Below are positions 3,008-37,130 of a stretch of DNA of 37,178 bases, one piece after another (positions within the stretch are counted from its first letter, which is position 1; each line of letters starts with the position of its first letter). The notes under the pieces are model-generated. The model was given only the letters and a program-made list of their open reading frames with translations. It ran no database searches and was not told the origin of the DNA. Origin of the DNA: an uncultured Clostridia bacterium (GTDB taxonomy: Bacteria; Bacillota; Clostridia; Oscillospirales; Ruminococcaceae); assembly GCA_947625125.1 (NCBI GenBank), contig CANQNF010000026.1:1-37178 (forward strand), read 5' to 3'. Both the position numbers and the translations under genes were made by a program.

Positions 3008-3031
3008 ATTCCGCCACTTGCGCTTATAATA

Positions 3032-3060
3032 AATATACAATATTTTGAGGAAAAAGTCAA
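3032..3060 (-). promoter_or_regulatory. Sigma-A promoter of the EAL gene
   Basis: On the minus strand TTGACT (3055-3060) and TATATT (3032-3037) are spaced by exactly 17 bases, about 20 bases before the ATG at 3007 once the start point is allowed for. The -35 lies inside an 8-bp inverted repeat, AAAGTCAA (3053-3060) and TTGACTTT (3070-3077), which could be an operator. Confidence 0.65.
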
Positions 3061-3075
3061 CACTTTTTATTGACT

Positions 3076-3104
3076 TTGAAAATAGCGGATTTTTAACATA
3101 TAAT
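3076..3104 (+). promoter_or_regulatory. Plus-strand promoter facing a short terminator hairpin
   Basis: TTGAAA (3076-3081), a 17-base spacer, then TATAAT (3099-3104). It diverges from the EAL promoter and shares the intervening inverted repeat. No plus-strand gene starts before maf at 3867, which has its own promoter. Confidence 0.5.
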
Positions 3105-3110
3105 GGCACG

Positions 3111-3157
3111 GCAAAGTCCCGCAAAAGCCCTATAATAAAGGCTTTGCGGGATTTTTT
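3111..3157 (+). ncRNA. Candidate very short RNA ending in an intrinsic terminator
   Basis: Immediately after the TATAAT at 3099-3104 comes a stem, TCCCGCAAA-GCC (3117-3129, one bulged A) pairing with GGCTTTGCGGGA (3140-3151), then six T (3152-3157). This is a textbook plus-strand terminator with no upstream gene to terminate, so the transcript would be about 45 nt. The promoter and terminator are seen; that the RNA exists is inferred. Confidence 0.35.
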
Positions 3158-12921: not shown

Positions 12922-12957
12922 CTTGTACTCCTCCTTTTTTAAAAATTTTTATATCGT

Positions 12958-16506: not shown

Positions 16507-17361
16507 AAAAAGTGAAGCCGACCCCGGCATGCCCGAAAAGTCAGGGGAAAAATCCACGAGAGCAATGAGGGGGGCAGTGTAGGCACAGGGGGGATGAAAG
16601 GAGAGGGACTGTCAGAGGGCAGGGGGCAGATGGGCAGAAGTCAGAAGAACGTTGCAATGAGATTGTGCGGAAAATCCCCATCTAATTTTCTGCAAAATTG
16701 GATGGGGATTTTCTATGCTCCCTGCGGTACTCGACCCACCGGGGATAAGGTATTTGCCTGTGACGTAAAAATAAAAAAGCCCGACCCTCCGCTGCCCTGA
16801 TAAAAGGTATTCGCCACTTCGTGACTCATGCTATTTTAAGTCACCTCCCCCTGACCCCCTCCTCGAGGAGGGGGGACGTCCTGACCAAACTTTGGTTAAA
16901 ATCCCCACCAGAATTTTTTGCAAATTCTGATGGGGATTCGTGCAAGGCTTGGTCGAAGCACTCCCCTCCCTTGGGGGAGGGGAGTGGGGGTAGAGGAACA
17001 AGTCAGAGGACAGATGACAGATAGTCAGAAGTCAAAAAAGCACGGCAAAAAGTTTGTGCGGAAAATCCCCATCAAATCCTTGCGGATTTTGATGGGGATT
17101 TTCTATAACCCTCCTGCGCTGCCTAAGTTAAAAAGGTATTCGCTTCGCGAATGCTATTTGAAGTACCCCCTCCCCCGACTGGGCTTGCAGAAACCCCGGG
17201 TATAGCGCCGCCCCCTCCCCAAGGGGAGGGGTGTTCCCCACACTTAAAGACCTGCCACTATTCCCGCGCTTACATTACATCAAAAATCGGCTCTTGCCCC
17301 TAAAAACTGGTAAGAGTCAATTCACTGTCACAATATATGTCTAAAATCAGCGCATAAATAC
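16507..17361. repeat. Repeat island of small palindromes, no gene
   Basis: Contains two heptamer tracts (16611-16649, 16998-17035), three related hairpins built on AATCCCCA/TGGGGATT (16671-16712, 16900-16938, 17062-17102), three C-rich palindromes (16855-16874, 16959-16986, 17212-17231) and two or three copies of AGGTATTCGC followed by an inverted stem and GCTATTT (16805, 17131; a weak one at 16747). Small ORFs here have no ribosome site and run through the repeats. Confidence 0.65.
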
Positions 17362-17971: not shown

Positions 17972-18820
17972 TTAGTTCACCCTTTTGGCTGCCACGACAT
18001 ATCTGTCGACGCTGTCCTTGCCGCAGGTAGAGAGTGTGATTAACTGGTCTCCGAACTCAGCTGTAACTCCTGTGTCATAGAGCTTTTCATCGTTCAGCCC
18101 GGCGATGTATTCGTTGAATACTTCTTCGTCGGTCAGGTCGGTGTAGTTGTACCAGCGAAAGACTCCTGTGTCGGTGGTCTTGTAGACACGGGTGTGAAGC
18201 ACCGCAATAACTTCGTAAACCCCGTGGTCTTCTACGGTGTCGAAGATGATGGTTTTATGCTCCTGCCAGAACTCCTCTTTGCGGTATTGAGTCAGCGCTG
18301 CAAACATCGTTCCGTTGCGCATGTGGTGGCCGTAGAGAAGATAGTTCCCGCAGCCCTCATAGCAGTCGGAATCCATGAAAGGCACTCCGCTTGAGGAATA
18401 TTTCTTTTCAAAGGAGCGGTGGAGGTAGTATTCCGGATCGTTTGGGGTATACATTACCGGATAGTCTATCTTTGTTCCCTCAATTGTTACCCAGCCGAAG
18501 AGATCGGGATTCTCTGCATACAGCTCGTCATATCTTCCGTTGGTGCTGCGGCTGTTTAAGGATTCTCCGTCAGCGCTTCCGAATATGCTCTCGGGGGCGA
18601 TGTATTCGGTCCATTCACTGTCTTCATCGCCGTAGCTCTCTTCTTCGCTTTGTTCCTCTTTCGGTCTTTCTTCAAGCCTTCCCTTGAGGTCGCTGAAAGC
18701 TTGGTTTTCTCTTGTTTTCCTTACGGTCTGAACAACGGTTACCGTTCCGGATATACAGAACACTGCGCAGAGTATTACAAGAGAAGTTATCATTATCGGC
18801 TTTCTGATGCTCTTTTTCAT
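17972..18820 (-). CDS. srtB: Class B sortase
   Basis: Membrane transpeptidase that cleaves a sorting motif after Thr and links the protein to peptidoglycan or to another protein. 282 aa with an N-terminal membrane anchor (about residues 8-30), an acidic linker, and a sortase B domain: FGWVTIEGTKIDYPVMYTPND, the catalytic His in NYLLYGHHMRNGTMF (about 163), the catalytic Cys266 in ITLSTCGKD, and Arg273 in VDRYVVAAKRV. YGHHM is typical of SrtB. ATG 18820 follows GGAGGCGGAG, 11 bases after the PilT-like stop, so it is the last gene of the pilus-like operon. The likely substrate is the FPATG protein encoded 6 kb upstream. Confidence 0.94.
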   Translation of the reverse strand: MKKSIRKPIMITSLVILCAVFCISGTVTVVQTVRKTRENQAFSDLKGRLEERPKEEQSEEESYGDEDSEWTEYIAPESIFGSADGESLNSRSTNGRYDELYAENPDLFGWVTIEGTKIDYPVMYTPNDPEYYLHRSFEKKYSSSGVPFMDSDCYEGCGNYLLYGHHMRNGTMFAALTQYRKEEFWQEHKTIIFDTVEDHGVYEVIAVLHTRVYKTTDTGVFRWYNYTDLTDEEVFNEYIAGLNDEKLYDTGVTAEFGDQLITLSTCGKDSVDRYVVAAKRVN

Positions 18821-18831
18821 CTCCGCCTCCG

Positions 18832-19887
18832 TTATCCTATCAGCCGCTTCATCTGTTCCGCGTTCACCGCATATCCCATTGCGGTGCTCTTGTCTATCAG
18901 ATTCTGGCGGTAGAGGTTAAGTACCGACTGATCCATCGTTATCATTCCGGAGGAGCCGCCTGTTGAGATCGCGTTGTCTATCTGGTGGCTCTTGCTGTCT
19001 CTTATCAGGCTTCTTATCCCCGCGGTCATATGCATTATCTCGTATGCCGGAACCATTCCGCCGTCCTTAGCCGGGACAAGCTGCTGAGATACGACGGTAT
19101 GAAGAACAGAACTTAACTGTATCCTTATCTGCGCCTGTTGTGCGGGAGGGAAGGAGTCTATTATTCTGTCTATCGTGTTTACAGCACCGCTTGTGTGAAG
19201 CGTAGCTATTACTAAGTGGCCGGTCTCTGCCGCGGTCATAGCGGTTCTTATCGTCTCGTGGTCTCTCATCTCTCCGAGAAGGATCACATCGGGCGCCTGT
19301 CTTAAACAGGCCCTTAATGCTGTCAGATAGTTTTCGGTGTCTATCGCTATTTCTCTCTGGCTGACTATGCTCTTCTGGTCCCGGTGGAGATATTCTATCG
19401 GGTCCTCGAGGGTTATTATGTGGCAGCTTCGGGTGCGATTTATCCTGTCGATGATGCAGGCCTGGGTGGTGGACTTTCCGCTTCCCGCAGTTCCGGTGAC
19501 GAGTATCATTCCCCTGTCTATCTTTGCAAGGCTTATCACCTGTTCGGGAATATGCAGCTCCTTGTAGTCGGGAATATTGAATGCAACCACTCTGACCACT
19601 GCGGCCATAGAGCCGCGCTGGCGGTAGGCGTTTACTCTGAACCTCGCGAGCCCTACGATTGCGAACGAGAAGTCGTCGTCTCCGGTTTCAAGATAGCGGC
19701 TTATGCCCCTCCCGGCTTCGATATACAGGTTTCGTATAAGCCTCTCTGTCTCTGCCGGAAATACCTTTTCCTCGCTTATCGCTGCAATTCTTCCCTTTAT
19801 CTTGCAGCTCACCATTCCGCCCGCAATCACAAACAGGTCGGAAGCTCCGCTTTCAACCGCTATGCGAAGGTAATCTGTTATTTCCAT
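18832..19887 (-). CDS. pilT: PilT-like type IV pilus/secretion ATPase
   Basis: Cytoplasmic hexameric ATPase, 351 aa from ATG 19887 (after AAAGGAGAGC). N-terminal PAS-like domain (DYLRIAVESGASDLFVIAGG). Walker A GTAGSGKST (about residues 130-138), Asp box LEDPIEYLHRDQKS, Walker B VILLGEMRD (about 200-208), His box ATLHTSGAVNTIDRIIDSFP, then the PilT-type YEIM motif, which here reads VPAYEIMHMT. In known systems PilT retracts pili. No PilB extension ATPase lies in the window, so this one may power both directions or work with a distant PilB. It begins two bases after the preceding stop. The open frame reaches 19962 but overlaps the previous gene. Confidence 0.92.
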   Translation of the reverse strand: MEITDYLRIAVESGASDLFVIAGGMVSCKIKGRIAAISEEKVFPAETERLIRNLYIEAGRGISRYLETGDDDFSFAIVGLARFRVNAYRQRGSMAAVVRVVAFNIPDYKELHIPEQVISLAKIDRGMILVTGTAGSGKSTTQACIIDRINRTRSCHIITLEDPIEYLHRDQKSIVSQREIAIDTENYLTALRACLRQAPDVILLGEMRDHETIRTAMTAAETGHLVIATLHTSGAVNTIDRIIDSFPPAQQAQIRIQLSSVLHTVVSQQLVPAKDGGMVPAYEIMHMTAGIRSLIRDSKSHQIDNAISTGGSSGMITMDQSVLNLYRQNLIDKSTAMGYAVNAEQMKRLIG

Positions 19888-19889
19888 TC

Positions 19890-20297
19890 TCAGCTCTCCT
19901 TTCCGGTCCAGACATTTAAGCTGTCGTCCGGAACCCAGTCTGCGGAATATACCGCCTGCCAACGGGTTACTTTGTAATCCTTTCCGTCGAGAATGACTTC
20001 AACTTCGAGATTCTGCGTGTCGGATATTTTGCAGCGGTATGCTGCGGTGTTATTCAGTATCTCCACTCCGTCGGGGACATAGCCCTCTCTTAGCTGCGAG
20101 AGTATTCTCTCCGCTTCAACATCTGCTTTGTAATAATCGGTTATCGCTTCACAAGATGCGCTCCTGAGCCGGTCCTCGGCCTGAACAGTGGACATTGAGA
20201 GCATCGCGAATACAGTCAGACACAAAACCGCGAAGATAACCAGCAGCGAGCTTCCTCCTACTGCCGGAGGCGAAAGGCGGCGCTTTTCTTCGTTCAT
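19890..20297 (-). CDS. Small single-TM pilin-like protein (135 aa)
   Basis: N-terminal hydrophobic helix (about residues 17-38, SLLVIFAVLCLTVFAMLSM) after a basic/Pro patch, then a Glu-rich alpha segment (CEAITDYYKADVEAERIL) and a C-terminal beta-rich part (YRCKISDTQNLEVEVILDG) with a final WVPDDSLNVW. The layout is like a pseudopilin, but there is no G-xxxxE prepilin site (VGGSSLLV lacks Glu at +5). Its ATG overlaps the previous stop as ATGA. I do not recognise a named family. Confidence 0.75.
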   Translation of the reverse strand: MNEEKRRLSPPAVGGSSLLVIFAVLCLTVFAMLSMSTVQAEDRLRSASCEAITDYYKADVEAERILSQLREGYVPDGVEILNNTAAYRCKISDTQNLEVEVILDGKDYKVTRWQAVYSADWVPDDSLNVWTGKES

Positions 20298-20713
20298 CTC
20301 CCCGCCCCCTTCTGCCAGCCAACGCTGAGTTCAAACAGTATTTTCCCGTCTGACTCCTTTACCTGTATATCCGCAAGACCTAAAAGCTCCTCGCCGGAGT
20401 CTTTTTTGGCTGCGGTCAATATGTATCTCGGGTTGTCCTTCGTTCTTTCCCAGTCACCGTCATAATTAACCGTAATTATGCCGTCCTCGTATTCCCCGCC
20501 GAGAAGGTCTGCGGATTCCTGATCCGGTCCTCCCTCGTGTTTTAATATCTCCGCTGCGGACTGAGCTGCTTCCGCCGCTCTGTCCCTTGCCGCTCCGTTT
20601 TTTGAATCGATATCTGACCAAACGAATACCCGTAAACACAGTACAGCCGCGAGGGCGAACACCAGAACCATTACCGCCTGTTCCATCAGGGCGAGAGGGG
20701 CTTTGCTTCTCAT
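20294..20713 (-). CDS. Small single-TM pilin-like protein (139 aa)
   Basis: Short basic N-terminus followed by LALMEQAVMVLVFALAAVLCLRVFVW (about residues 7-32). If cleaved before L7 it would carry Glu at +5 as in type IV prepilins, but the -1 residue would be Pro6, not Gly/Ala. Then an Ala-rich helix (RDRAAEAAQSAAEIL) and a beta-rich end (GIITVNYDGDW, GLADIQVKESDG). ATGA overlaps both the upstream and downstream genes, so expression is tightly coupled. Probable minor pilin. Confidence 0.75.
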   Translation of the reverse strand: MRSKAPLALMEQAVMVLVFALAAVLCLRVFVWSDIDSKNGAARDRAAEAAQSAAEILKHEGGPDQESADLLGGEYEDGIITVNYDGDWERTKDNPRYILTAAKKDSGEELLGLADIQVKESDGKILFELSVGWQKGAGR

Positions 20714-21198
20714 ACGTTCTCCCCCTCTCCTCTGAGAGACAGAACAAGACTTCCCGCGTTTCCTTCGCCGTCAGTCAGTTCTATCCTCAGAAGTCCGTCT
20801 TCGAGGGACATATTCAGCTCTTCGGCTCCGAGTATTCTCTCACCGTCTTCGGGCTTGCAGTCCATTGATGAAGACGCGAATATCTCTCTCAGCCAGCCGT
20901 CATAGCAATATACCCTTGTTACGAACTCCCTCTCTCCTATCTTTTCGGAGATGCAGAGCGCGTCGGTTCCTCCGAAGTCCGAAACGCTTATCTCTCCGCC
21001 GGACTTCGCCTGTCTGACCTTTGTCGCGACATACTGAAGGCAGGTTCTTTCCCCGAACGCTTCGCGGTCTCTTTCGGTCAGCCGGCGGTAGGCGTCGGCT
21101 CCGGTCAAAAGTACCGAAAGTATGCAGGCGGCGAATACTCCGAACAGAACCGGCGCGATCAGTCCGTCGATCCGGTGCTTCCGGCTTTTCAGAACCAT
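20710..21198 (-). CDS. Pilin-like DUF4860-type protein (162 aa)
   Basis: TM helix at about residues 15-33 (APVLFGVFAACILSVLLTG) after a basic start, then a helical stretch with YRRLTERDREAFGERTCLQYVATKVRQAKSGG and a beta-rich globular part (ISVSDFGGTDALCISEK, YCYDGWLREIF). The layout resembles DUF4860 proteins found with pilus genes in Clostridia; assignment is from pattern only. No canonical prepilin site (DGLIAPV lacks Glu). ATG is 4 bases after the previous stop. Confidence 0.75.
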   Translation of the reverse strand: MVLKSRKHRIDGLIAPVLFGVFAACILSVLLTGADAYRRLTERDREAFGERTCLQYVATKVRQAKSGGEISVSDFGGTDALCISEKIGEREFVTRVYCYDGWLREIFASSSMDCKPEDGERILGAEELNMSLEDGLLRIELTDGEGNAGSLVLSLRGEGENV

Positions 21199-21202
21199 CT
21201 TC

Positions 21203-21541
21203 TTACCGCCTTTCCGCCTCTTGCCTCTCGAGAACCGTGAAGTCCGGCATCAGATTAGAGGCAAAGGCCTTGTAATCTACATAGTATCGGCTTTCATCTA
21301 TCTGAAGGCCGTATTTTTCTTTCATGTATTCCACCGTTGGGGGATATATCCCCTCAGACGCGTAGCACGCAGCCGCAGTTCTTCTTATTGACTCTTCGAG
21401 CTGTTTTTTGTCCTCGTCTCCGCTCCCGTTCCGGATATTTGAAATGCCGGTAAAGAAGCAAATGAGGACCGCAACGGCAATAAGCGGCGTCATTATCGCG
21501 CCGAGCTCGCCGGCTATGCGGCTTTTAGGCTTTCTTATCAT
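21203..21541 (-). CDS. Pilin-like protein (112 aa)
   Basis: N-terminal basic patch MIRKPKSRIAGELGAIMTPLIAVAVLICFFTG, with the TM helix at about residues 16-32. The soluble part begins with an alpha segment (DEDKKQLEESIRRTAAACYASEGIYPPTVEYMKEKYGL), a pattern like major pilins or type II secretion GspG in which an alpha-1 spine is followed by ASEGIYP, and ends in a short beta/loop tail. This is the best candidate for the major pilin. It lacks an obvious G-xxxxE cleavage signal. It starts 4 bases after the pilC stop (GGTGAGAGAATG). Confidence 0.72.
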   Translation of the reverse strand: MIRKPKSRIAGELGAIMTPLIAVAVLICFFTGISNIRNGSGDEDKKQLEESIRRTAAACYASEGIYPPTVEYMKEKYGLQIDESRYYVDYKAFASNLMPDFTVLERQEAERR

Positions 21542-21545
21542 TCTC

Positions 21546-22592
21546 TCACCCGATCGCAGTCATTATGTTCATCAGAGGAAGCATTACGGCCAAAAGTATT
21601 ATCCCGACCAGAACGGATGTTACCATTACCAGCGCGGGCTCTACTCTTGCGACCGATTCCTCAAGCGCGGCGTCGCTTTCCTCGGAAAGTCTTCTCGCGA
21701 TCTGTTCCATCGCGGTGTCTCCTGTCCCGCTTCTCAGACCTATCTCAAGTATTCTGCACTCGGCATTAGGAAGCGTGCCGGATTCCTTCATCGCCGCCGA
21801 AAGGGATTCGCCGTCTTCGAGCCTTTTTCGGCAGTCGTCGCATCTCGCCTTTGCCGCCGGTACGCCGTCTAAAAGCGACCCTGCAAGCTCCAGCGCTTCA
21901 TCAACAGGCAGGCCGCTGCTCAGACCCATCGAGAGCGACTGAGCGAAGCAGGCGGTGTTTATCTTTCCCGAAACTCCCCTGTCGCCCATATATCTGCGCC
22001 AAATGCCGGTGAGCTTCTCGCGGAACGACGGCACCGCCGCAAACAGGATAAGAAACAGAACGACAAGTCCGAGAAGTACACATAGAAAAGGCATTGCGGT
22101 ATCAAGAGCTTTTCCGAGCGACAGAAGTCCTCCCGCAATTCCGCTGAGACTTGCGCCGAGATAGGAATACACTTCATTGAACACGGGGAGAACCTTAATA
22201 AGCAGAACGCCTATGACTGCGAGCATTATGACCAGAAGAACAGAGGGATACATCAGCGCGGACCTGACCTGGCGGTCCAGCCTTGCCCTGTCCTCGTAAT
22301 ATCTTGAAAGCGCGGTCAGAGCCTCCTCGGTCCTTCCGGACTTCTCTCCGACTTCCAAAAGTCCGCAGACATAGTCGGGGAATCTTCCGCACTCCCTGAC
22401 CGAATCAGCGAGGTTTATTCCTCTGTCGGCGCTCTCCGAAAGCTGCTTGCAGAGCTCACGCTGCGAAGCGTCGCTCTCCTCTTCGGCGAGAAGCGCAAGC
22501 CCGTCGCCGATCCCTACTCCCGAGTGTATCAGCAGCGAAAGCTCCAGGCAGAAGCCGCTTATCTCCCGGTTGTTAAGCTTTTTTTCGTTCAT
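21546..22592 (-). CDS. pilC: PilC/GspF-like inner membrane platform protein
   Basis: 348-aa polytopic protein with two T2SSF repeats: N-terminal EISGFCLELSLLIHSGVGIGDGL...GLLEVGEKSGRTEEAL and a second CFAQSLSMGLSSGLPVDEAL...ILEIGLRSGTGDTAMEQ. Hydrophobic helices lie at about 113-137, 163-190 and 318-343. In type IV pilus and type II secretion systems this protein links the ATPase to pilin insertion. ATG 22592 follows GGAGG (22600-22604). First gene of the pilus-like operon. Confidence 0.9.
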   Translation of the reverse strand: MNEKKLNNREISGFCLELSLLIHSGVGIGDGLALLAEEESDASQRELCKQLSESADRGINLADSVRECGRFPDYVCGLLEVGEKSGRTEEALTALSRYYEDRARLDRQVRSALMYPSVLLVIMLAVIGVLLIKVLPVFNEVYSYLGASLSGIAGGLLSLGKALDTAMPFLCVLLGLVVLFLILFAAVPSFREKLTGIWRRYMGDRGVSGKINTACFAQSLSMGLSSGLPVDEALELAGSLLDGVPAAKARCDDCRKRLEDGESLSAAMKESGTLPNAECRILEIGLRSGTGDTAMEQIARRLSEESDAALEESVARVEPALVMVTSVLVGIILLAVMLPLMNIMTAIG

Positions 22593-22604
22593 CTTTATTC
22601 CTCC

Positions 22605-22927
22605 GGAATCAAATCTTGCAATCTATGTAAAGCTGTGAATTTTCAAATTTAAAAATTTAATTTAAAAGTTTTCGATACAACCTTTTTAAAAGGTTGGCGA
22701 GAGACCGGAGGCGAGAAGCCTCCGGTCGCAGCCCGCAGGCTGCGAAGCCCCTTTCCTAGAACAAAATCAGGAGGGGAGCGAAAACAATCCGGTGAATTGT
22801 TTTCGCACGGGGGAACCCTATTAAGGGGTTCCCCGAACAAAACTGCTCGGTTTAACGCCGCTTCTTATCAAATCATTTAGAAACGACCTTACAGGAGGGC
22901 AGGTTTTGCCCTCCTGTAAATGAATAA
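22605..22927. repeat. Hairpin-rich gap between the lipoprotein gene and pilC
   Basis: No gene. A/T-rich part (22640-22680) probably holds the pilC operon promoter, though I cannot fix a -10/-35 pair. It is followed by hairpins GACCGGAGGC/GCCTCCGGTC, CGCAGCC/GGCTGCG, GCGAAAACAAT/ATTGTTTTCGC, GGGGAACCC/GGGTTCCCC and TTACAGGAGGGCA/TGCCCTCCTGTAA (22890-22920). The last may end transcription of the lipoprotein gene. Confidence 0.5.
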
Positions 22928-24028
22928 TCAGTAGAAGTATTTGGCGACATAGTTCTTTCCGTCGCCTATGTATTCCATTGTCTTGTCGCTCTTATTGCCG
23001 GTAGATGCGAACGTCGGGTCCATTCTCTGCCACGACTCTCCGTCGAAGTAGATGACGTCCTGGATCCAGCCGGTTTCGTCTGCCCAGACGTTTATCCATG
23101 CGTGGTAAGCGGTTCCGGTGTAGCCTACGACCAGTTTGCAGGGAACGCTCTGGCTCCTCAGCATTCCGGCCATCAGCCCCGCGTAATCTAAGCAGATTCC
23201 TGTTCCTTTATCCAGAACATCGTCGAGATCCGGTACATATCCGCTCTTGATGTTTGCGGCCTTGTCATAGTCGTATTCTGTGTTTTCGACGACGTAGTCG
23301 TAGATAACTCCGACCTTTTCAAGAGCGTCGTCTATTCCCTTGCAGAGCTCCGCCGCCTTTATTATCGTCTCGGGTGCGCTCTCGAAGTTTACATACTGGT
23401 TAGAGCGCAAAAACGGCGCAAACTCGTCGCTTATTCTCGCGTTGAAGCTCGCCGACGCAGACTGGGCGTAGGAGGTTCCTCTGACGTTCTCGTAAACTCC
23501 GACCTGGTAGGTTCCGTCTCCCTCCGAAAGCGGAAGCGCGGCCCATTCTCCGGGCTGGATGTCATACTGGTACTGCGTCGTCGGAGCCTGAACCAAAGCC
23601 TTTATTCTGTTCGAGGTCGAGGCGGTGAATTTGACCATTACATAGCCGTCGCTTGTGTTCGAATAGTCGATGACCGCGTCGCTTGTGCGGACCTCTGAGG
23701 TTCCGGGTGCGCTTGTGGGGGCGTAGGTCGGGATCTCGGGAAGGTCGCCGGACATTGCAACCTTAGCGTCTTCGATCGTTTCGAGCACCTCTTCGGGCTC
23801 GGGTTCTTCTTCGCTGCTCTCCGAAACATCGGGCTCCGTTTCGGCTGTTGTTGCGGATTCCGAGGTCAAGACGCTTGTCCGGGTTTCCTCGGTGACTGTA
23901 ACGCTTCCCTCGGACTCGGGAATCTTGCTCGCCGAATCCTGCTTGACGGTTGCCTGCGAACAGGCAGTCGTCAAGATCAGTACGGAAACCACAGTCAGAG
24001 TCAGTACAATTCTAAGTATCTTCTGCAC
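22928..24028 (-). CDS. Transglutaminase-fold lipoprotein
   Basis: 366 aa from a GTG at 24028. Signal peptide with a lipobox ending LILTTAC (Cys about residue 23), so a lipoprotein anchored outside the membrane. An acidic Ser/Thr/Glu linker (about 30-110) leads to a transglutaminase-core domain with a visible triad: Cys279 in GTGICLDYAGLM, His309 in AYHAWINVW, Asp337 in RMDPTFAS. Proteins of this fold act as transglutaminases, deamidases or cysteine proteases; which is unknown here. An in-frame GTG three codons upstream (24037) overlaps GGAG, so 24028, 8 bases after AAGGAG, is preferred. It begins 43 bases after the giant wall-protein stop, implying one transcript. Confidence 0.85.
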   Translation of the reverse strand: MQKILRIVLTLTVVSVLILTTACSQATVKQDSASKIPESEGSVTVTEETRTSVLTSESATTAETEPDVSESSEEEPEPEEVLETIEDAKVAMSGDLPEIPTYAPTSAPGTSEVRTSDAVIDYSNTSDGYVMVKFTASTSNRIKALVQAPTTQYQYDIQPGEWAALPLSEGDGTYQVGVYENVRGTSYAQSASASFNARISDEFAPFLRSNQYVNFESAPETIIKAAELCKGIDDALEKVGVIYDYVVENTEYDYDKAANIKSGYVPDLDDVLDKGTGICLDYAGLMAGMLRSQSVPCKLVVGYTGTAYHAWINVWADETGWIQDVIYFDGESWQRMDPTFASTGNKSDKTMEYIGDGKNYVAKYFY

Positions 24029-24071
24029 TGATTTCACTCCTTCGGTTGGGGTTTCGTTTGTTTGGTTTTAA

Positions 24072-30000: not shown

Positions 30001-33000
30001 AAAGAAACGGTCTGTGAACCGGTCGCTTCAACGGTGTCTATAACCGCTCCGCTTGCGTCCTTAAGCTCGAATTTGAAAACTTTCTTTTCTTCGGGCTCGT
30101 TCTCAACAGTCTTCTTTACACCGGGTACATATCTCGTAGACTTGGTGTACTTGTTGACGATCTCTACAGTTGTTTCGCCCCTGTTCACTACTTCCGCTTC
30201 AGCAGTGCCGCCCTCGGGAGAAACCTCAAGCTTCCATTCGGCTATGTTTCTTTCTTCCCTGTTCTCGGTGACTTTATATGTGCCGATCGGAAGACCCTTG
30301 GCAGTAGCGGTTCCGTTGCCTGTGATTGTGACAGCAGCGCTCCCGTTTTTGAATTCAATGTCGCCATACTTGCCGTCAGGTACATTTACTCCATCAGCTG
30401 TAACGGTGAAGGTAAATGTCTTCTTAGCTGCTTCCTCTCCGCCGCCGTCGACTGTCTTCTTGACGGTCAGATCACCGGTCGCTTTGACGTTGGTGACTGT
30501 CAGCTTATCCGGCTTCTTGTCGGTGTTATGACTTATAACTCCGGAAATTTTGCCGGATTCACGGTAACCGCTGTTGGAATCCTCGGCAAGGGTGTATCCG
30601 GTGCCGCTGGGGATTCCGTCGATCTTAACGGTCTCGCCCTGTTTCAGCGTGAAGCTTGCAACGCCGTTTTCAAACTTAACATCGCCGTACTCGCCGCTGA
30701 TCTCGCTGTTGTCAAGAGTCAGAGTGAAGCCGAATTCGGTCTTATCCGATTCGTCCTTTTTGCCGTTCAAGGCGACGACCTTCTCGATCTCCAACCCGCC
30801 GGTCTTTCTGACGTTGGTGACTGTCAAGGTCTCTATTCTGCCGTCTGCGCAGCAGCGGATAGTTCCGGTCGTCGCAGATGTCTCAAGATAATTCGGGTTG
30901 TTGACTTCCGTAAGGGTATATACGGTTCCGTCGGGAAGATCGGAGAAGATAACGCTCTGCCCATGCTTCAGGGTGAATGTTGCTTCGCCGTTTGTAAAGG
31001 CTATTTTCTTGTGCTCGGCAGATTCATCATCTGTGTATTCGCCATATTCACCGTTGATCTTTTCGTTGTCAAGCTTCAAAGTGAAGGTGAACTCGGTTTC
31101 ATCATACGGATCTTCTTCACCGTTCAGGGTGACAACTTTCTCAATCTCTAATCCGCCGGTCTTAAAGGTGTTAGTGACGGTGACCTTAGCGGAATCGTCT
31201 TCAGCGATAACGCCGCTGCTCACGCCGGTCAGCGTAACTTCTCTTTCAAAGACCATGCCGGTGCCGTAATCGTCCTTGACAACGGTGGTCAATGTATAGA
31301 CCGTTACATAGTTGTCCTGATTCTCTTCACTTTCCTTAACGGTGTAGCCGAGACCGGTAGGAAGACCGGCCGCAGTCTTGCTCTCTCCGCTCTTCAGAGT
31401 GAAGGCGGCTGCGCCGTTCTCGAACTCCATCTCGCCGTAAGTCCCGTTGACGGTCTTGTTTTCAAGTGTTACGGTGAAGTGGAATTCCTTGTTAAGGTCT
31501 CCGCCCTTGCCCTCAACAACCTTGGTGACGGTCAGACCGCCGGTCTTGCGGGTGTTGGTGAAAGCTGCGGTTGCTGTCTTGTCATACTCAATTTCTCCGA
31601 TCTCATCGGTGAAGGTCGAGCTGTATTCGCCGTCTCTGTCTTCAATGACGGTGTACTTGACTCCGACAGGAAGATCGGTCGCCGTTGCTGTCCCGTTATT
31701 ATTGGAAAGATACAGATCTGCAACGCCGTTTGTGAAGTGCATATCGCCATAGTCGCCGTTTATTGTTGTATCACTGAGGCTGACGGTGAAGTGGAAGAGC
31801 TTTTCTAAGTCGGCTCCGTTGCCGGTTACGGTCTTTGTGACTGTAAGTCCGCCGGTCTTGAAAGTGTTCGTGACAGTGACTACAACAGTTTTGTTTTCTT
31901 CAATAGTACCCTCGTGAACATTCTCATCGCCGTCTTCGGTTGTAGTAGAATAAGCGGTGACATACTTATCATAATTCTTCTCGGTGACCTCGTAGGTAAT
32001 GCCGGTCGGGAGGCCGGATGCTGTCTTGCTCTCGCCGTCCTTCAAAGTGAAAGTAGCAACGCCGTTTTCAAAATGCATCCGGCCATAATCTCCGGTAAGA
32101 GCCTTGCCGAGTTTTACGGTGAATTCAAACGATGCATTCTCATCGCGGTTATTGTCTGACGCGGATACGGTCTTGGTGACTGTAAGCCCGCCGGTCTTGC
32201 GAGTGTTGGTGAAGGCTGCGGTTGCAGTCTCTTTGTATTCGATCTTTCCGGTTTCGCCGGTGGATGTAACGATGTATTCGCCGGTTACTTCCTCCTCACT
32301 GACGGTATACGAGAGCCCGGCAGGGAGATCGGTTGCTGTCTTGATGTCTCCATCCTTCAAAACAAGATCCTTAGAAACACCGCGCTCAAAATAAATGTCG
32401 CCATAAGTTCCGGTGATATCTGCAACTTCTTCGTCTTTGAACAGCGTAACTGTGAATTTAAACGACGCTTCAGGATCGCGATTGGCTTCGGAAACTACAA
32501 CATTCTTAGTGACTCTCAAATCACCGGTTTTATACTTGTTGGTGACAGTGACAACAGAAGTCTTGCCAACGTTGATCATTCCGGTCTTAGAAATAAGCTT
32601 CGAGACGTAATCCTTATTGTTCTCGGATATGCTGCTAGTGGTTATCTCATAAGTCGTCTCATAGTTGTCCTTATTGGCCTCTGCTTCGGTAACGGTGTAA
32701 GTGATTCCGGCAGGAAGACCGGTAGCAGTTGCGCTCTCGCCGCCCTTAAGGGTGAACTCTGCAACGCCGTTGGTGAAGGTCATCTCGCCGTAAGTACCGT
32801 TAAGGGGTTCGTCTAAGGTTACAGTGAAATTGAAACCCTTGGTAGTGTCTGCTCCGACACCGACTACAGTCTTCTTGACTTCGAGATCGCCGCTCTTGCG
32901 GGTGTTGGTGACTTCAACCTCAGCAGTATTGTCGGCTTCAATCTTTCCGATTTCGCCGGAATATTTGGCTGAATAATCACTGCCTATTGACTTTTCAAGC

Positions 33001-36000
33001 ACGGAGTATCCAATTCCTTCGGGCAGATCGGTGGCTTTCTTAACCTCTCCGTTTGTAAGCGTAAAGTTTGCAACACCGTTGGTGAAGGTCATCTCGCCGT
33101 AAGTACCGTTAAGGGGTTCGTCTAAGGTTACAGTGAAATTGAAGCCCTTGGTAGTATCTGCTCCGACGCCGACTACTGTCTTCTTAACTTCGAGATCGCC
33201 GGCGCCGCGGGTGTTGGTGAATGTCGCCTGAGCAGTACCCTCTTCGGGAATTGTGCCGGTCGAACCGGTAGATTCCGTTGTATAGTGACCCTGATTCGCT
33301 TCAGTTTCGGTTACGGTGTAGCCAATTCCGGCAGGAAGTCCGAGCGCAGTCTTGCTCTCGCTATGCTTAAGAGTGAACTCCGCAACGCCGTTTTCAAAGG
33401 CCATGTCGCCGTATGTGCCGGTGATGGTCTTGTCATCAAGAGTTACAGTGAAGTTAAAGGCCTTATTCTTGTCTCCGCCATCGCCTTTAACAATCTTTTC
33501 AACTTTCAGATCGCCGGTCTTTCGGGTGTTGGTGACAGTGACTGTAGAGGAATCATCAATATTGATTATTCCAGAACCGCAGGAATTATCAGATACCGCT
33601 GTGCCAAAGGTCTTGTCGCCGACAGGTACTTTGCTGCCATCGTTGGTAGTCGAATAAGAAGTCAGATAGTCAGGATCTTCGGCTTCGGTAACTTTATAAC
33701 TTACGCCTGCAGGGAGGCCCTTGATTGTATAGTGCTCGCCGTTTTTGAGTATAATACCCTCAATTTTACCGCTTTCCGGAACATTAACCTCAGTGACCGG
33801 AGCTTCTTCACCATCAATGAGATATTTATGATTGGTTTCTACTTTGAAAGTCTTGCCCCTGACAAGTTCAACATTCTCGCCGGAGAACTCAACAGCGAAT
33901 GTGAAGTCCTTTTCTGCGTCTCCGCCATCGCCGGCAACAACTTTTTCAACAGTCAGGCCGCCAAGCGCAGGAGTATTAGTAACTTCAAGCGTCCCGTAAG
34001 GGTTAACTACAATGTATTCCTTGCCGATAGTATCATCACGCAATCCGTAATAATACCTGATCGGTTTGTCTAACTTCTCATATCCCCCCGGGGCCTTTGT
34101 CTCTACTAAGAAGTACCAGTTGTCTGGGCCTAATTTGTCGCTCTCGAAATACACAGTTCCGTCTTCGCCGGTTGTGTAATCGCCGATGTAGCTAACACTA
34201 TAACCTTGTATAGGTTTAGATGGGTCTTCCTTAAGCACCGAGCCTTCTTTGCGTTCAATATAGAGCTTAAATGTCGCTCCTGCGAGAGGAGTTTTAGTAT
34301 CGGCGTCGACCTTTTTAACAGTCATACCAAAGGCGCTGCCGCTGCCCGATTGGTTGATATGATCGACGTTCAGCAAGCTGCTGTACCCGTCATCGGATTG
34401 GGCGACTCCCTCAATGCCGGCTGAATTTGAAACCTGTATGCCTACTCCTTTCTTGGGGATTCTGGCCTCATAGGTTATATCCAGCGGAACGCCGTCGGGA
34501 ACAACTATTGTAAGCTGAAGCTTTTCGCCGCTGCCATCTGCCGCTTTAACCGTTTCGGTTTTAACTGTAACGTCAACCGGCTTCGCTGTCTTCGTATTGG
34601 TTACTTTAACAGAACTTTTAACGATTTCAAGATTTTCACTCTTGTCTACTACATTTAAAGTCTCGCTATTGGGATCAAGATCGGCGCCTTCCGGGTTGAT
34701 AGCCAGGGTGAACTTAAGCAGATCGCTGTTGCCGTCTACTTGTTCCGCCTTCTTAGTCAGCTTGGCAGGGTAGTACTCGATCGTCTTATCCGCAGACCAG
34801 TGTGTTGTGGTTTTGTCTTTAATCTCAGCGTGGTTTTTCACCGGGACCGGCTCGTTGGCTGTGGCGTTATTCTTCTTCCAATCATCAGAGGCTTTCAGTT
34901 GGTAGTGGAACTCGAGCGACGTCATTTCACTGCCTATGAACCAGTTGTCCAGTTCTTTGTTTCCATTAACACCAATATCGTCTTGGAAAACAGCCAAAGG
35001 TACGCAGATAATATTATTTTCTTTATCATACAACCGGCTATCATAGTTGATTTTATGAAATTCCTGCTTATTATTCTGTCCGCATGCGACGGCGTACAGG
35101 CTTCCATCTACATACTCCCAACCTTCGGGCAGCTTGTCGTAAAACACCGCCTGCATACTACCGGAAAACATTGTGTCGACGTTCCACCCATTTGGTTCTC
35201 CCAGACCATACCACTCTGTCGCCACATCGTGAAAATACGTCTTGACGGTGCTGTCGGTGGTGTTGATGGTGACGGTGTAGTCGATGGTGCCATCGGCCTT
35301 GTTCAGCTCGCCGGTCTTGATCATGTCGTCGGCGTTGTTGAAGAACACCGAGTAGCCGGGGAAATAGCCGCCGTAGCGGAGGGCGACGTTGTTGGTGATT
35401 CCGGCCCTCAGGACTTCCTCCGGGGTCAGCTGCAGTTCTTCCCTACTGCTCCCATCATCGTTTAAATCGTAAAGCGTCATAGGCTCGGTTGAGGACATAT
35501 CCAGGTCGTACTCGGTGATGATGAGACGGTCCTTGTCGTAGTCCCAACTGCCCCATTCGCCCCACACTTCGCCTGCTTTGCCGAAGATGATGTACAGACT
35601 CTTGTCAGCAAAGTAATAGAGGTAATTATTGCGGCTGGCATTGTTGTATCCGTCCGGAACATTCCAACCATCGTACGAATAGCCGGTCAGCTCTTCCGCG
35701 TTTTCTGCAAGCTCACTAAATGACCTGATCTTATCAGGAGCCGGAGTATTGTCGGCCCAATCATCGCCGCCAAACCACTCATTCACGTCCACGGCTTTTA
35801 CTGTAAGGTTCTTGACCTTGCCGTTAGGCGTAAACTCCTTAAGATACCACTTCTTGCCGTTATACTGCACATACATATCGTCGTAGATTTGGAGGGGGGT
35901 CCACTTACCGGCAGGCACCACCGTGTACAGGGTGTAGTGCAGGGTTTTGGTCGCCTCGCTGTAGCTCTGGTCCTTGCAAATCACGCCGTGTCCGTCGGGG

Positions 36001-37130
36001 GACATAAAGACCTCGCAGCTGTCGGCCGCTTCCTGCGTCACGTGTATGTTTTCCACCTTGCTGGGGTCACCGGGGTCTTCGACCGGCATGTTGCCGGTGA
36101 AGGTGGCCTTGTTCTCCATGTTGGCCCAAAGATGGAGGTTGGGGTTGCTCACATTTACATCGTAGGTGTAGGTGAAGCGGAGCTCGTCGCCCTCTTTAAG
36201 GGGATAGTAGTCGCTTCCTTCTTTGATCTTCACCTGGAATTCCTTGCCCAGGGGATTCTCAGGGCCGCCTTTCGTCTCTGTCAGTTCGTAGTCATCATCT
36301 GTAAGGGTATAGGTATGCTCTTCGGAGCCATCATTCCGCTTGAGCGTAACGGTAACACCGCCAGACGGTCCCTCCAGACTGAACGCGCTGTTCTGAGGAA
36401 GGGTGAGAACGTCATTGAGCGTCGCGTCGTTAAGCTCACCGTGCTCCACGGTTACCTTCACGGTGTAGGAAAGGGTGCCGCCCGTTCTTTTGTCCGCGTT
36501 CTCCGTATAAACGCCGTCCTTCTCAATCTTGACCCGGGGCTGATCGGTAATCTCGAAGGTAAAGTCCTCGCCGACGCCGCCGAAATCCACCGACCCGCTG
36601 CTGCTGCCATGAGTAACATCTGCAGTTGCATCCATGTCAAAGGACAGCTTTACATTTGACGCCGTTTCGAGAGCCGCCTTGCCCTCGGGGCTAAGCGTCA
36701 GGGTCAGCAGCCCGTTTTCATCGACAGAATACTGACCTACATTCACTTCATGGGTGACTTGCTTCCCGTCCTCGTTTTCGGTGATGGTTATCACAAGGTC
36801 CTTCGGGGAATGGTCAGTGACCTTGAACTGCGTGGGCATCTGATAGGTCAGGGCCCCGTCGGTCGAGAATTGGAGTCCCTGAACGCCGCCCTCGGAAAAT
36901 TCGAGGTGGATACTGTAGCTGTCGCCGTTGGTAAGCGTCCCGTCGATGGGTTTACCCTCGGCGTCGGTTATCGAGACCGCGCTCAGAAAATCTTTCAGAT
37001 CTTTGCTTTCGCTTTTGCTGTTATCGGCCGCTTCCGCGATTGCAGACATTCCGGGCATACTGAACATAAACGTCAGCGCCAGAACAACTGCCAAAATCCT
37101 GTTAAGCAGTGTCATCTTTTTCATGCTCAT
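24072..37130 (-). CDS. Giant FPATG-anchored multi-Cna_B surface protein (4352 aa)
   Basis: Secreted wall-anchored fibre protein. Signal peptide at residues 1-34 (hydrophobic 12-24, MSAIAEA end). A ~900-residue N-terminal region of Ig-like/adhesin beta domains (34332-37030) is followed by one SpaA-like Cna_B domain (33966-34331), 14 DUF5979-like repeats (29106-33965), one of them an FctA/Spy0128-like pilin domain, and 15 shorter DUF7601-like repeats (24696-29105). Then come a last Cna_B domain, a Pro/Asn/Asp-rich stretch, FPATG (24198-24212), a TM helix and a charged tail (RKSKENSESAE). By eye every repeat keeps a Lys near its start, a Glu in a YTVTE-like strand and an Asn near its end (VTNTY), the residues that make isopeptide bonds in Cna_B domains. 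ATG 37130 follows AAGGAGCAA. SrtB of the same locus is the likely anchor enzyme. Confidence 0.93.
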   Translation of the reverse strand: MSMKKMTLLNRILAVVLALTFMFSMPGMSAIAEAADNSKSESKDLKDFLSAVSITDAEGKPIDGTLTNGDSYSIHLEFSEGGVQGLQFSTDGALTYQMPTQFKVTDHSPKDLVITITENEDGKQVTHEVNVGQYSVDENGLLTLTLSPEGKAALETASNVKLSFDMDATADVTHGSSSGSVDFGGVGEDFTFEITDQPRVKIEKDGVYTENADKRTGGTLSYTVKVTVEHGELNDATLNDVLTLPQNSAFSLEGPSGGVTVTLKRNDGSEEHTYTLTDDDYELTETKGGPENPLGKEFQVKIKEGSDYYPLKEGDELRFTYTYDVNVSNPNLHLWANMENKATFTGNMPVEDPGDPSKVENIHVTQEAADSCEVFMSPDGHGVICKDQSYSEATKTLHYTLYTVVPAGKWTPLQIYDDMYVQYNGKKWYLKEFTPNGKVKNLTVKAVDVNEWFGGDDWADNTPAPDKIRSFSELAENAEELTGYSYDGWNVPDGYNNASRNNYLYYFADKSLYIIFGKAGEVWGEWGSWDYDKDRLIITEYDLDMSSTEPMTLYDLNDDGSSREELQLTPEEVLRAGITNNVALRYGGYFPGYSVFFNNADDMIKTGELNKADGTIDYTVTINTTDSTVKTYFHDVATEWYGLGEPNGWNVDTMFSGSMQAVFYDKLPEGWEYVDGSLYAVACGQNNKQEFHKINYDSRLYDKENNIICVPLAVFQDDIGVNGNKELDNWFIGSEMTSLEFHYQLKASDDWKKNNATANEPVPVKNHAEIKDKTTTHWSADKTIEYYPAKLTKKAEQVDGNSDLLKFTLAINPEGADLDPNSETLNVVDKSENLEIVKSSVKVTNTKTAKPVDVTVKTETVKAADGSGEKLQLTIVVPDGVPLDITYEARIPKKGVGIQVSNSAGIEGVAQSDDGYSSLLNVDHINQSGSGSAFGMTVKKVDADTKTPLAGATFKLYIERKEGSVLKEDPSKPIQGYSVSYIGDYTTGEDGTVYFESDKLGPDNWYFLVETKAPGGYEKLDKPIRYYYGLRDDTIGKEYIVVNPYGTLEVTNTPALGGLTVEKVVAGDGGDAEKDFTFAVEFSGENVELVRGKTFKVETNHKYLIDGEEAPVTEVNVPESGKIEGIILKNGEHYTIKGLPAGVSYKVTEAEDPDYLTSYSTTNDGSKVPVGDKTFGTAVSDNSCGSGIINIDDSSTVTVTNTRKTGDLKVEKIVKGDGGDKNKAFNFTVTLDDKTITGTYGDMAFENGVAEFTLKHSESKTALGLPAGIGYTVTETEANQGHYTTESTGSTGTIPEEGTAQATFTNTRGAGDLEVKKTVVGVGADTTKGFNFTVTLDEPLNGTYGEMTFTNGVANFTLTNGEVKKATDLPEGIGYSVLEKSIGSDYSAKYSGEIGKIEADNTAEVEVTNTRKSGDLEVKKTVVGVGADTTKGFNFTVTLDEPLNGTYGEMTFTNGVAEFTLKGGESATATGLPAGITYTVTEAEANKDNYETTYEITTSSISENNKDYVSKLISKTGMINVGKTSVVTVTNKYKTGDLRVTKNVVVSEANRDPEASFKFTVTLFKDEEVADITGTYGDIYFERGVSKDLVLKDGDIKTATDLPAGLSYTVSEEEVTGEYIVTSTGETGKIEYKETATAAFTNTRKTGGLTVTKTVSASDNNRDENASFEFTVKLGKALTGDYGRMHFENGVATFTLKDGESKTASGLPTGITYEVTEKNYDKYVTAYSTTTEDGDENVHEGTIEENKTVVVTVTNTFKTGGLTVTKTVTGNGADLEKLFHFTVSLSDTTINGDYGDMHFTNGVADLYLSNNNGTATATDLPVGVKYTVIEDRDGEYSSTFTDEIGEIEYDKTATAAFTNTRKTGGLTVTKVVEGKGGDLNKEFHFTVTLENKTVNGTYGEMEFENGAAAFTLKSGESKTAAGLPTGLGYTVKESEENQDNYVTVYTLTTVVKDDYGTGMVFEREVTLTGVSSGVIAEDDSAKVTVTNTFKTGGLEIEKVVTLNGEEDPYDETEFTFTLKLDNEKINGEYGEYTDDESAEHKKIAFTNGEATFTLKHGQSVIFSDLPDGTVYTLTEVNNPNYLETSATTGTIRCCADGRIETLTVTNVRKTGGLEIEKVVALNGKKDESDKTEFGFTLTLDNSEISGEYGDVKFENGVASFTLKQGETVKIDGIPSGTGYTLAEDSNSGYRESGKISGVISHNTDKKPDKLTVTNVKATGDLTVKKTVDGGGEEAAKKTFTFTVTADGVNVPDGKYGDIEFKNGSAAVTITGNGTATAKGLPIGTYKVTENREERNIAEWKLEVSPEGGTAEAEVVNRGETTVEIVNKYTKSTRYVPGVKKTVENEPEEKKVFKFELKDASGAVIDTVEATGSQTVSFGSISYDKEGAYVYTITEVDPHAENDQLVDYYEYDSSEWTLTVTVTRNADTGELEAAAKYTKGSTTSDAYAEFVNKYVPVGSFSVTKAVKGVETDASFSIKVTAVGNSALSGTYGDMTFVDGAATFTLKNGDKKTAIGVPTGTYTVEEDTSTAAVSGYRLSVESKTHETVTVGVGGDAAVEIVNSYEPNPGTLVVKKTVTGSGNPDAEFNFTVTLSDASVNGDRGEMTFKNGVATFTLKNGESKAASNLPAGTNYTVVETEANTGDYVTSYNGVAGAKNAAGTIETEQVSNVEVRNHRPEGKLSIEKKVVGGGDAGAKQDYSFEVTGPENYKNTVTVTGNGKQELKGLVPGTYTITEASADIENYTLKVTTGEGEAAVEGSSVTVEVSADETAKAEVIFTNTYTSALGSLTIKKTVEGGGAEAANKTFTFTVTGPSYPDGHDVTITGSGTAALASLIPGTYTVTEKGGDVKGYDLEVTGGGEAEITADKVTEIDVTNTYTQKLGGLKLTKTVVGGGEEAAAKTYTFKVAGPNRYKETVNITGNGSATLENLVPGTYTVTEVRDGTEVNGYDLAVTGENDVTVEAEKTAEITITNTYTQKLGKLTVVKSLVGGGDEAKAKTYTFTVTGPNGYSNTVTVTGSGTATLEDLVPGVYTVSEENAAIEGYSLEVTGGGNATVEAEKTAAVAVVNTYKPELGSLTITKVVVGGGKEAANKAYTFTVSGPNGYSGTVTITGNGAATLDNLVPGAYTVTENDAGITGYTWAVSGDNGVTVESDKTATVTVVNTYEPMLGSLTIRKVVNAPVTEPTPDPAIAPDEIAADAVIPAVPAYFNVRVAGADDNTGGYDVVHTVPANGSITIEGLVPGLYTVSEVDAGVPGLAWSATGSGDVTVVGGSGAEVTITNNYTVPSPEVGTLIISKAIFGAEEKALNKTFVFDVTGSNGYTNTVTVTGAGSAVLTDLEPAVYTVTERNADIEGYTWSVSVSGEGNVTVGGTAEVTVTNSYTELPKGSLTVNKTVIGGGEEAQNKVYTFNVTGPNGYSNTVTVTGTGSVTITDLEPGTYTVTEVREGAEIEGYTLSVTDGGTAVVGYGTASDVNITNNYTENPKGSLRITKTVTGDTEAAEGKVFIFDIAGPEGYTNTVTVAAGGSVTVSDLKPGTYTVTERSGEIEGYTLEVTGEGDYPVGTEEVEAAINNNYTEIPKGSLTVTKTVTGDTEAAEGKVFIFDIAGPDGYTDAVTVAAGESVTIADLEPGTYTVTEQSGEIEGYTLEVTGEGDYTVGAEEISIEIVNNYTEILKGSLVINKEVVGGGEEAANKTYTFDVTGPEGYSTTVTVTGNGSAVLTDLTLGEYTITEQNAEIEGCTLEVTGSGTVTVKGNENAEITVTNTYTETPKGSLVISKEVVGGGSEASEKTYTFEVTGPNGYSAEVTVIGNGSATLNNLEPGIYTVSEKDAAIEGYTLEVAGEGETEVIANENAAVTITNTYEQIVGSLTITKSVVGGGDEAANKIYTFVITGPNDYSNTVTVIGSGSVTVEGLVPGEYTVTEQNAEIEGYRLTVDGTETATVAADENVDVTITNSYDLIVGSLTITKSVVGGPEDAASREYTFLVTGPDGYAATVTVTGNDSATLEGLVPGEYTVTEQNAEIEGYSLTVDGEGTVTVIADQNIDTTITNNYELLLGSLTLTKAIAGGGEGAANRIYTFVVTGPEGYSNTVNIIGSGSVTLTDLIPGEYVVTEQNAEISGYRWNVSGEGAVTVIGGEGVQLTVTNTYDGLRDINVCKEWYVNGSRTSAPYGAQITVVLLADGEATGDRLTLSEANNWSGAFTGLLVNAEDGHEIVYTVAEVYYAGWTSSVSGSADAGFVITNYTATPEIPNIPNVPDNPYTPPTTPENPDVPYFPNNTFDIPDFDTPLSDILYAEAPLTDIPDLDAPLDAFPATGDESRTYLWAAVMLFSGLGIIVLIAMLIAEGRKSKENSESAE
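24198..24212 (-). other. Cell-wall sorting signal FPATG
   Basis: Codons for F-P-A-T-G are followed by a spacer (DESRT), a TM helix (YLWAAVMLFSGLGIIVLIAMLIA) and a basic/acidic tail of 13 residues. It is an LPXTG variant with Phe at position 1; FPXTG motifs are known on some sortase-assembled pilins. Confidence 0.88.
24696..29105 (-). repeat. 15 tandem DUF7601/Cna_B-like repeats
   Basis: About 98 residues each, starting (K)GSLTITKxVVGGG and running through YTFxVTGPNGYS, VPGTYTVTEQNAEIEGY and ending ITNTYT. Nucleotide similarity is high but not identical, so no recent wholesale expansion is seen. One unit (27,290-27,640) carries a Pro/Ala insertion (TEPTPDPAIAPDEIAADAV). Confidence 0.85.
29106..33965 (-). 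repeat. 14 tandem DUF5979-like repeats
   Basis: Longer repeats (100-150 residues) of the form TGGLTVTKxV, FxFTVTLDN..GTYGDMxFENGVAxFTLKxGES, LPAGIxYTVTE, and TNTRK. This block differs from the downstream block by its GTYGEM/FENG strand pair. The FctA-like unit is 29769-30140. Confidence 0.85.
29769..30140 (-). repeat. FctA/Spy0128-like pilin domain embedded in the repeat array
   Basis: Runs from STRYVPGVKKTV to FVNKYV. It differs from its neighbours by a central GAYVYTITEVD and a SEWTLTVTVTRNADTGEL strand, as in streptococcal backbone pilins with isopeptide linkage. Sequence pattern only. Confidence 0.55.

Follow-up and report, generated by a model that had tools for sequence, protein, structure and literature searches.

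A transglutaminase-fold lipoprotein is encoded with a type IV pilus-derived PilC-PilT operon in Clostridia, to which sortases were probably added in some lineages

A gene unit encoding a transglutaminase-fold lipoprotein, a PilC-type platform, four pilin-like proteins and a PilT-family ATPase was identified in Clostridia. Judged from gene order across genomes, this unit is what is conserved, rather than a combination of sortase and pilus. We consider, with a probability of about 0.5, that it encodes a machine descended from type IV pili and widespread among Clostridia, in which an uncleaved pilin-like complex on PilC would be driven by PilT and would serve a surface transglutaminase.

The window, i.e. 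the whole analyzed stretch of 37,178 nucleotides, is the entire contig C26 of a source genome of 3.17 Mb in 101 contigs. From position 37,130 down to 17,972, nine genes were located on the minus strand, in the orientation and order described by an earlier reading of the sequence alone. The gap of 11 bases which that reading had given between pilT and the sortase gene is exact. The features are:

24072..37130, minus strand: giant surface protein of 4352 aa with an FPATG signal near the C-terminus; accessory part
22928..24037, minus strand: transglutaminase-fold lipoprotein of 369 aa, read from GTG 24037, matching PF01841 with 70 bits; core part
21546..22592, minus strand: PilC/GspF-type membrane platform, matching PF00482 with 155.6 bits in two stretches; core part
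21203..21541, minus strand: psp1, a single-TM protein resembling a major pilin, with no cleavage motif recognised; core part
20710..21198, minus strand: psp2, a pilin-like DUF4860 protein, matching PF16152 with 83.7 bits; core part and marker of the system
20294..20713, minus strand: psp3, pilin-like, with PLALMEQ replacing the GFTLIE of canonical-like loci, so that Glu remains and Gly/Ala at -1 is gone; core part
19890..20297, minus strand: psp4, pilin-like, without E5, the Gly before the TM helix being kept in the window; core part
18832..19887, minus strand: PilT-family ATPase of 351 aa, read from ATG 19887, matching TIGR01420 with 413.5 bits; core part
17972..18820, minus strand: class B-like sortase, 11 bases past pilT, matching PF04203 with 50.6 bits; accessory part

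The genes of the four single-TM proteins together span positions 19890-21541, and the giant-protein gene starts 48 bases from the contig end. For the transglutaminase gene, GTG 24028 is also a possible start because of its spacing to AAGGAG. The start of pilT is more likely ATG 19887 than TTG 19962, since the alignment with most PilT relatives begins only at about residue 19-31 if the longer reading is used. The transglutaminase gene and pilC are separated by 335 bases, so the locus in the window may give rise to two transcripts. Part of this gap recurs elsewhere in the same genome (88% over 59 bases; the search covered the window and five stretches of its genome). By eye, the intergenic regions 22640-22910 and 16900-17250 of the window look repeat-like.

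Two samples of loci were compared. Set A consists of the nearest PilT relatives, namely the best 80 of 556 confirmed among the first 588 pattern matches; it was drawn from one-genome-per-species contigs and leans to close kin. At least 1.5 kb of downstream flank was available in 68 of these 80 loci, and some flanks are short. Set B consists of 46 DUF4860 (psp2) loci selected without regard to PilT from an even draw of 393 genomes of the class, that is 46 of the 47 class-wide matches, the 47th being the window, and includes three weak matches (30, 22 and 20 bits). At an E-value of 0.001, DUF4860 was found in 44 of the 393 class genomes, that of the window included, 42 of which lie over the curated cut-off. 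In a phylum-wide draw it was found in 13 of 398 genomes.

Within set A (best 80 of 556), PilC could be identified in 78 loci, the other two (L022 and L084) being cut off upstream, and the transglutaminase gene in 75. In 73 of the 80 it precedes pilC by no more than 500 bp in the same orientation, and the prevailing order is transglutaminase-PilC-psp1-psp2-psp3-psp4-PilT. PilC was also present in all 46 loci of set B, 29 of which contain the transglutaminase gene, upstream on the same strand in 25. PilT adjoins the psp genes in 37 of the 46 loci, and at least two of the nine misses are situated at contig ends. This order in both sets argues that the transglutaminase belongs to the pilus-like machine. 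The sequence-only reading had placed these genes together, which agrees with the counts, and had also tied the transglutaminase to the giant fibre, where the conserved order assigns it to the pilus-like machine instead.

Judged by its sequence, the transglutaminase itself is an intact enzyme. Its Cys282/His312/Asp340 triad is invariant in 105 of 105 sequences, that of the window included, which together with the PF01841 match places the core domain in the transglutaminase-like superfamily. At least 90% of 51 sequences have the lipobox Cys26. The predicted model (mean pLDDT 81.4) shows a beta-sandwich at residues 115-200 followed by a papain-like core. The solved relatives found by profile, 3isr, 6g49 and 4xz7, are bacterial transglutaminase-like enzymes matched over this core; in contrast to these, the operon protein is a lipoprotein, has a beta-sandwich in front of the core and is encoded with a type 4 filament platform. 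The fold may also mean a protease or another activity.

The machine parts of the operon are well preserved. The PilT of the window exceeds the TIGR01420 cut-off of 319.1 bits and is assigned to the PilT retraction ATPases, its motif residues, Walker A included, being conserved in at least 95% of 118 sequences. The PF00482 score assigns PilC to the PilC/GspF platform family. PilT is the only ATPase of the operon, which encodes none of the PilB/GspE/ComGA extension type.

Among the four small proteins of the window, only psp2 has a Pfam match (DUF4860). No N_methyl match was obtained for any of the four with Pfam, and none matched a model in NCBIfam. The psp2 model (mean pLDDT 86.9) has a lollipop pilin fold, with a long helix at residues 10-63 and a head of antiparallel strands; the fold assignment covers psp2 and was judged from secondary structure, and comparison of the psp2 profile with solved structures gave chance-level matches only (E 0.3 and 0.68). 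The psp1 protein has a conserved position and a YP motif in its head in 101 of 104 transglutaminase loci.

Several loci connect these proteins with ordinary prepilins. In L180, the counterpart of psp1 is a GFTLIE pilin matching N_methyl, and a single protein beside PilB-PilT-PilC matches both DUF4860 and N_methyl. L181 is alike, with DUF4860 below its cut-off, and psp3 of L153 matches N_methyl with 32.7 bits. In the PilC tree, 19 canonical-like rows are split from the rest with an SH-aLRT of 99. A sister form without the transglutaminase keeps GFTLIE-type motifs (L153, L156, L157, L160-L162, L164, L166-L172).

Judged by these sequences, the pilin-like proteins descend from ordinary prepilins and have mostly lost the cleavage site. 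Gly or Ala at position -1 of psp3 was found in 14 of 105 transglutaminase loci, compared with 15 of 20 loci without the transglutaminase, and Glu5 was kept in 101 of the 105. Where the psp3 motif could be parsed (95 of 105 sequences, ten being dropped), the -1 residue was Pro in 49 and Gly/Ala in 14. A recognisable cleavage site is absent from psp1 and psp2 in nearly all transglutaminase loci. No type III signal, with a leader ending in Gly or Ala, was recognized in the pilin-like proteins of the window, psp4 keeping the Gly. This Gly before the helix was also found in 67 of 105 transglutaminase loci by a narrow pattern, and since it is kept where a cleavage site would lie, psp4 may be processed. 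In lacking Glu5, psp4, the last pilin-like protein, resembles GspK.

The distribution of the processing and extension functions was determined across genomes. The prepilin peptidase domain PF01478 was matched in 36 of the 44 DUF4860 genomes and three times in the genome of the window, where PilB is encoded elsewhere, in a canonical locus with PilB, PilT, PilC and pilins that lies at the edge of its contig (L012; C16, 213-4677). This genome also contains a Tad-like locus (L013; C2, about 8-17 kb of locus). Loci L177, L179 and L181 were excluded from the class-wide counts over 25 genomes; their transglutaminases reach only 159-207 bits and are placed elsewhere relative to the operon, and canonical pilin motifs are kept. 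PF01478 was not found in three of the 25 class-wide genomes with the operon (G134, G213 and G304) or in three of 12 strain-named genomes with it (G396, G401 and G402). The second peptidase model, PF06750, gave no match in these six or in G106 and was found in the genome of the window. A prepilin peptidase was thus detected in the window's own genome and in none of these seven.

Extension ATPases of PilB type were counted as PF00437 matches above 300 bits, a threshold set for this analysis. None was found in 13 of the 25 class-wide genomes carrying the operon and in nine of the 12 strain-named ones. In G134, a single contig listed as 100% complete, PF00437 matched the operon PilT and nothing else (34 of 39 first-look candidates scored); the same holds for Flintibacter muris DSM 110149 (G396) and Pseudoflavonifractor phocaeensis An858 (G402), for both of which every candidate was scored. 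P. phocaeensis An901 (G401) contains the operon PilT and one further PF00437 match below the cut-off.

The argument from absence is based on G134 and the three named strains, the latter having no completeness figures, and assembly gaps can mimic the absence of a peptidase or ATPase. Four genomes with the sister form that keeps GFTLIE (G067, G187, G312 and G395) have no PF01478 match either, so the absence from a draft may reflect a gap in detection or assembly. As far as these genomes indicate, the operon persists where neither a peptidase nor an extension ATPase is detected, and the system does not require a prepilin peptidase.

These data bear on whether the operon encodes an ordinary type IV pilus, with a peptidase for its prepilins and a PilB for extension both encoded elsewhere in the genome. 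Such supply from outside would fit the 36 genomes with PF01478, the equipment of the window's genome and the description of MSH loci without a peptidase gene that may borrow the one of another system, as given in passages of PMC6668835. However, it is at odds with the genomes that lack both peptidase models, with Pro as the commonest residue counted before the psp3 cleavage position, and with psp1 and psp2, which rarely show the motif in transglutaminase loci. We regard an ordinary type IV pilus as unlikely, and the label 'type IV pilus' is too strong for an operon with mostly lost cleavage sites and several host genomes without a detected peptidase or extension ATPase. The same 36 genomes and the complete PilB-PilT-PilC locus of the window's genome count against the proposed peptidase-free machine; in that genome, which has peptidases and PilB-PilT-PilC, a sharing of parts is possible. 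Compared with type IVa pili, which work with PilB and PilT and are represented by the C16 locus, the operon has homologous PilC, PilT and pilins, and the DUF4860-type proteins of L180 and L181 stand beside PilB-PilT-PilC. It differs in having no PilB, in the loss of the N_methyl motif and in the absence, from 13 of 25 class-wide genomes, of any PF00437 match above 300 bits.

The composition of the operon can vary further. In five genomes of one family (L138-L140, L142 and L144) it lacks pilT, and in a sixth, G361 (L137), the contig ends 303 bases past psp4. All six contain a lone PilT elsewhere (L183-L188) that groups with canonical PilTs; in three genomes of the family it is located about 40 kb from the operon. 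In G106 (L182; listed as 100% complete), PilC and four pilin-like genes are present, with psp2 below the DUF4860 cut-off; no PF00437 and no prepilin peptidase match was found in this genome, and no transglutaminase adjoins the operon.

Cleavage motifs were lost, one clade lacks pilT and G106 has no PF00437 ATPase at all, as could be expected of a decaying type IV pilus relic kept by chance. Against decay, the gene order is conserved over many families, the triad is invariant, the ATPase motifs are conserved and dN/dS is low. Across the five pairs whose dS is under about 1.1 (L046/L039, L038/L045, L154/L163, L173/L174 and L034/L036), 33 of 35 gene values did not exceed 0.25. Both exceptions are from L046/L039, with 0.27 for psp3 and 0.49 for psp4. 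The closest pair, the window and L017, gave 0.09-0.63 on few substitutions. Based on these ratios, the operon is taken to be under purifying selection, the relic explanation was rejected on the low dN/dS, and we hold it to be highly improbable.

The main functional rival is a Com-like competence pilus of Clostridia for DNA uptake with a single motor. The Com pilus of Streptococcus sanguinis and Bacillus subtilis also has one ATPase, one platform with two T2SSF stretches and few pilins, and ComEC (PF03772) was found in all eight genomes examined for it, including seven in which no peptidase was detected. However, ComEC occurred in every genome tried and is therefore non-discriminating. Com pili need the peptidase ComC, according to passages of PMC10790768, whereas several operon genomes show no peptidase. 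The operon motor is of the PilT family, its pilin-like proteins are mostly without a cleavage site, and the transglutaminase it includes would be left unexplained. Membership in the Com system was rejected, since PilT reached 125 of the 300 bits required for ComGA and PilC 106 of the 240 required for ComGB. A competence pilus is accordingly judged rather unlikely.

The type II secretion pseudopilus (GspE, F, G-K) resembles the operon in its one major-like and several minor-like pilins, but the operon has no GspE-type ATPase, peptidase, secretin or GspLM. In passages of PMC10191384, every type 4 filament system is described as having a pilin, a prepilin peptidase, an extension ATPase and a platform, and the pilin leaders as invariably ending in Gly or Ala. 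The same four proteins are given as the minimal machinery for assembly in the part of an experimental study consulted here (PMC10790768). As it is present in genomes without a detected peptidase and extension ATPase, the operon system appears to fall below this published minimum. The occurrence of pilT in Gram-positive pil operons has been reported, in passages that do not contain the word transglutaminase (PMC3244431). Among PubMed Central texts under CC0, CC BY or CC BY-SA, no paper was found for 'DUF4860' and none combining transglutaminase, sortase, type IV pil and Clostridia.

As to how the preferred transglutaminase-serving machine moves, what state its pilin homologues are in and what it acts on, we infer the following. 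PilC would hold the four pilin homologues, one major-like and three minor-like, uncleaved in the membrane, where they would form a short, non-filamentous or piston-like complex. ATP hydrolysis by PilT, acting alone, would move or remodel this complex, which in turn would deliver, gate or position substrates for the transglutaminase outside the membrane. The enzyme would then act on surface proteins, making (or breaking) cross-links of amide or isopeptide type. In the lineage of the window, the machine has recruited a class B-like sortase and a giant protein with a sortase signal, the latter being the likeliest local client; the sortase would fix it to the wall and the transglutaminase would modify it. 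The more specific proposal, that a filament-free PilT-driven device operates the transglutaminase with neither prepilin processing nor an extension motor, and that sortases and adhesins were attached to it repeatedly, is put forward tentatively.

The sortase of the window scored 141.6 bits with the class B model TIGR03064, below the cut-off of 153.75, and is therefore not assigned to class B; its nearest solved chains are sortase B. Within the available stretch, a sortase was found in 18 of the 80 set A loci (best 80 of 556), compared with 1.35 expected from a background of 124 PF04203 matches in about 127 Mb (44 genomes). The two detectors differ, as the observed count was obtained with a profile trained on operon-side sortases and the background with PF04203; moreover, the loci are not independent, and the Poisson value for the excess is a guide only. 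Ten of the 18 sortases in these best 80 of 556 are located past pilT within 100 bp and four before the transglutaminase gene within 60 bp; the remaining four lie further off or are inverted. No sortase was present in the available stretches of the other 62 of the 80 loci (some with short flanks) and of 45 of the 46 set B loci. A sortase was observed on the same contig at about 14-28 kb from the operon in the set B genomes G147, G245, G273, G348 and G351.

In the sortase tree, in which long branches meet at the 100/99 join, the sortases encoded past pilT fall on both sides of this 100/99 branch. Of the three further sortases of the window's genome, two group on the side of the window and one on the opposite side. 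Mapped onto the PilC tree, the sortase label requires 11 changes (at least eight by starred branches). Operon-side sortases belong to at least two sortase lineages and were thus probably recruited more than once, which argues for a joint use in the operon lineages that have them.

The giant protein contains 19 stretches matching DUF7601, 28 matching DUF5979, 13 matching SpaA and one matching Cna_B (the models overlap), so its earlier description as a giant Cna_B fibre is loosely right. Large sorting-signal proteins were found near the operon in 13 of the 80 set A loci (best 80 of 556) and in none of the 46 set B loci. Their domains vary, with Cna_B in L021 and L027 and VWA together with a GBS104-like domain in L037. 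A giant protein directly upstream of the transglutaminase gene was observed only in the window, L017, L018 and L021 (Cna_B type) among the best 80 of 556. The likeness to sortase-assembled pili and SpaA/Cna_B adhesins, i.e. a sortase together with sorting-signal proteins carrying SpaA/Cna_B-type repeats, is restricted to some lineages; in contrast to those systems, the sortase is class B-like and in most genomes is not tied to the operon.

The sequence-only reading had suggested joint use of the two systems, in its strong form as a dedicated apparatus in which a pilus-like machine moves or presents a sortase-anchored giant fibre, and had named separation of these genes in related genomes as evidence against it. 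What stands is the recurrence of operon-side sortases, of two sortase lineages, and of large sorting-signal proteins nearby. On the other hand, neither the sortase nor the giant protein is a core part: both are usually separated from the operon in relatives, and where surface proteins are encoded nearby at all, their domains vary. The strong form is thereby contradicted, and we consider a dedicated joint apparatus decidedly improbable. The sortase was likewise ruled out as a core part by its presence in only 18 of 80 set A loci (best 80 of 556) and one of 46 set B loci. Joint use as a lineage-specific addition, and not as the nature of the machine, is partly supported by this distribution of genes.

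The persistence of a conserved operon under purifying selection in genomes with two of the four parts undetected would either lower the minimum for type 4 filament assembly or point to a role of PilC, PilT and pilins other than pilus building. The system could also explain how clostridial surfaces are covalently remodelled. As F. muris DSM 110149 and P. phocaeensis are named strains, these possibilities are directly testable.

Among 126 loci examined, the commonest neighbour of the operon, found in 24, is a protein about 400 residues long (e.g. L029:4800-6083 and L163:6594-7832); L084, which holds only PilT, was excluded from the neighbour count. A BTAD domain was identified in five of six scanned members of this cluster, the sixth being short and without a Pfam match. 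The adjoining BTAD (SARP-like) regulator is often divergent to the operon, and its position as a neighbour suggests that use of the operon is regulated.

Two further regions of the window were noted, both on the minus strand. Positions 278-3175 encode an EAL-domain protein of 965 aa, with the EAL domain at residues 360-584 and a long C-terminal part that has no Pfam match and appears repetitive and beta-helix-like by eye. At positions 10753-13509, an ECF-type sigma factor is followed by a large protein with the beta-propeller domain PF09826, and the two are a possible sigma/anti-sigma pair.
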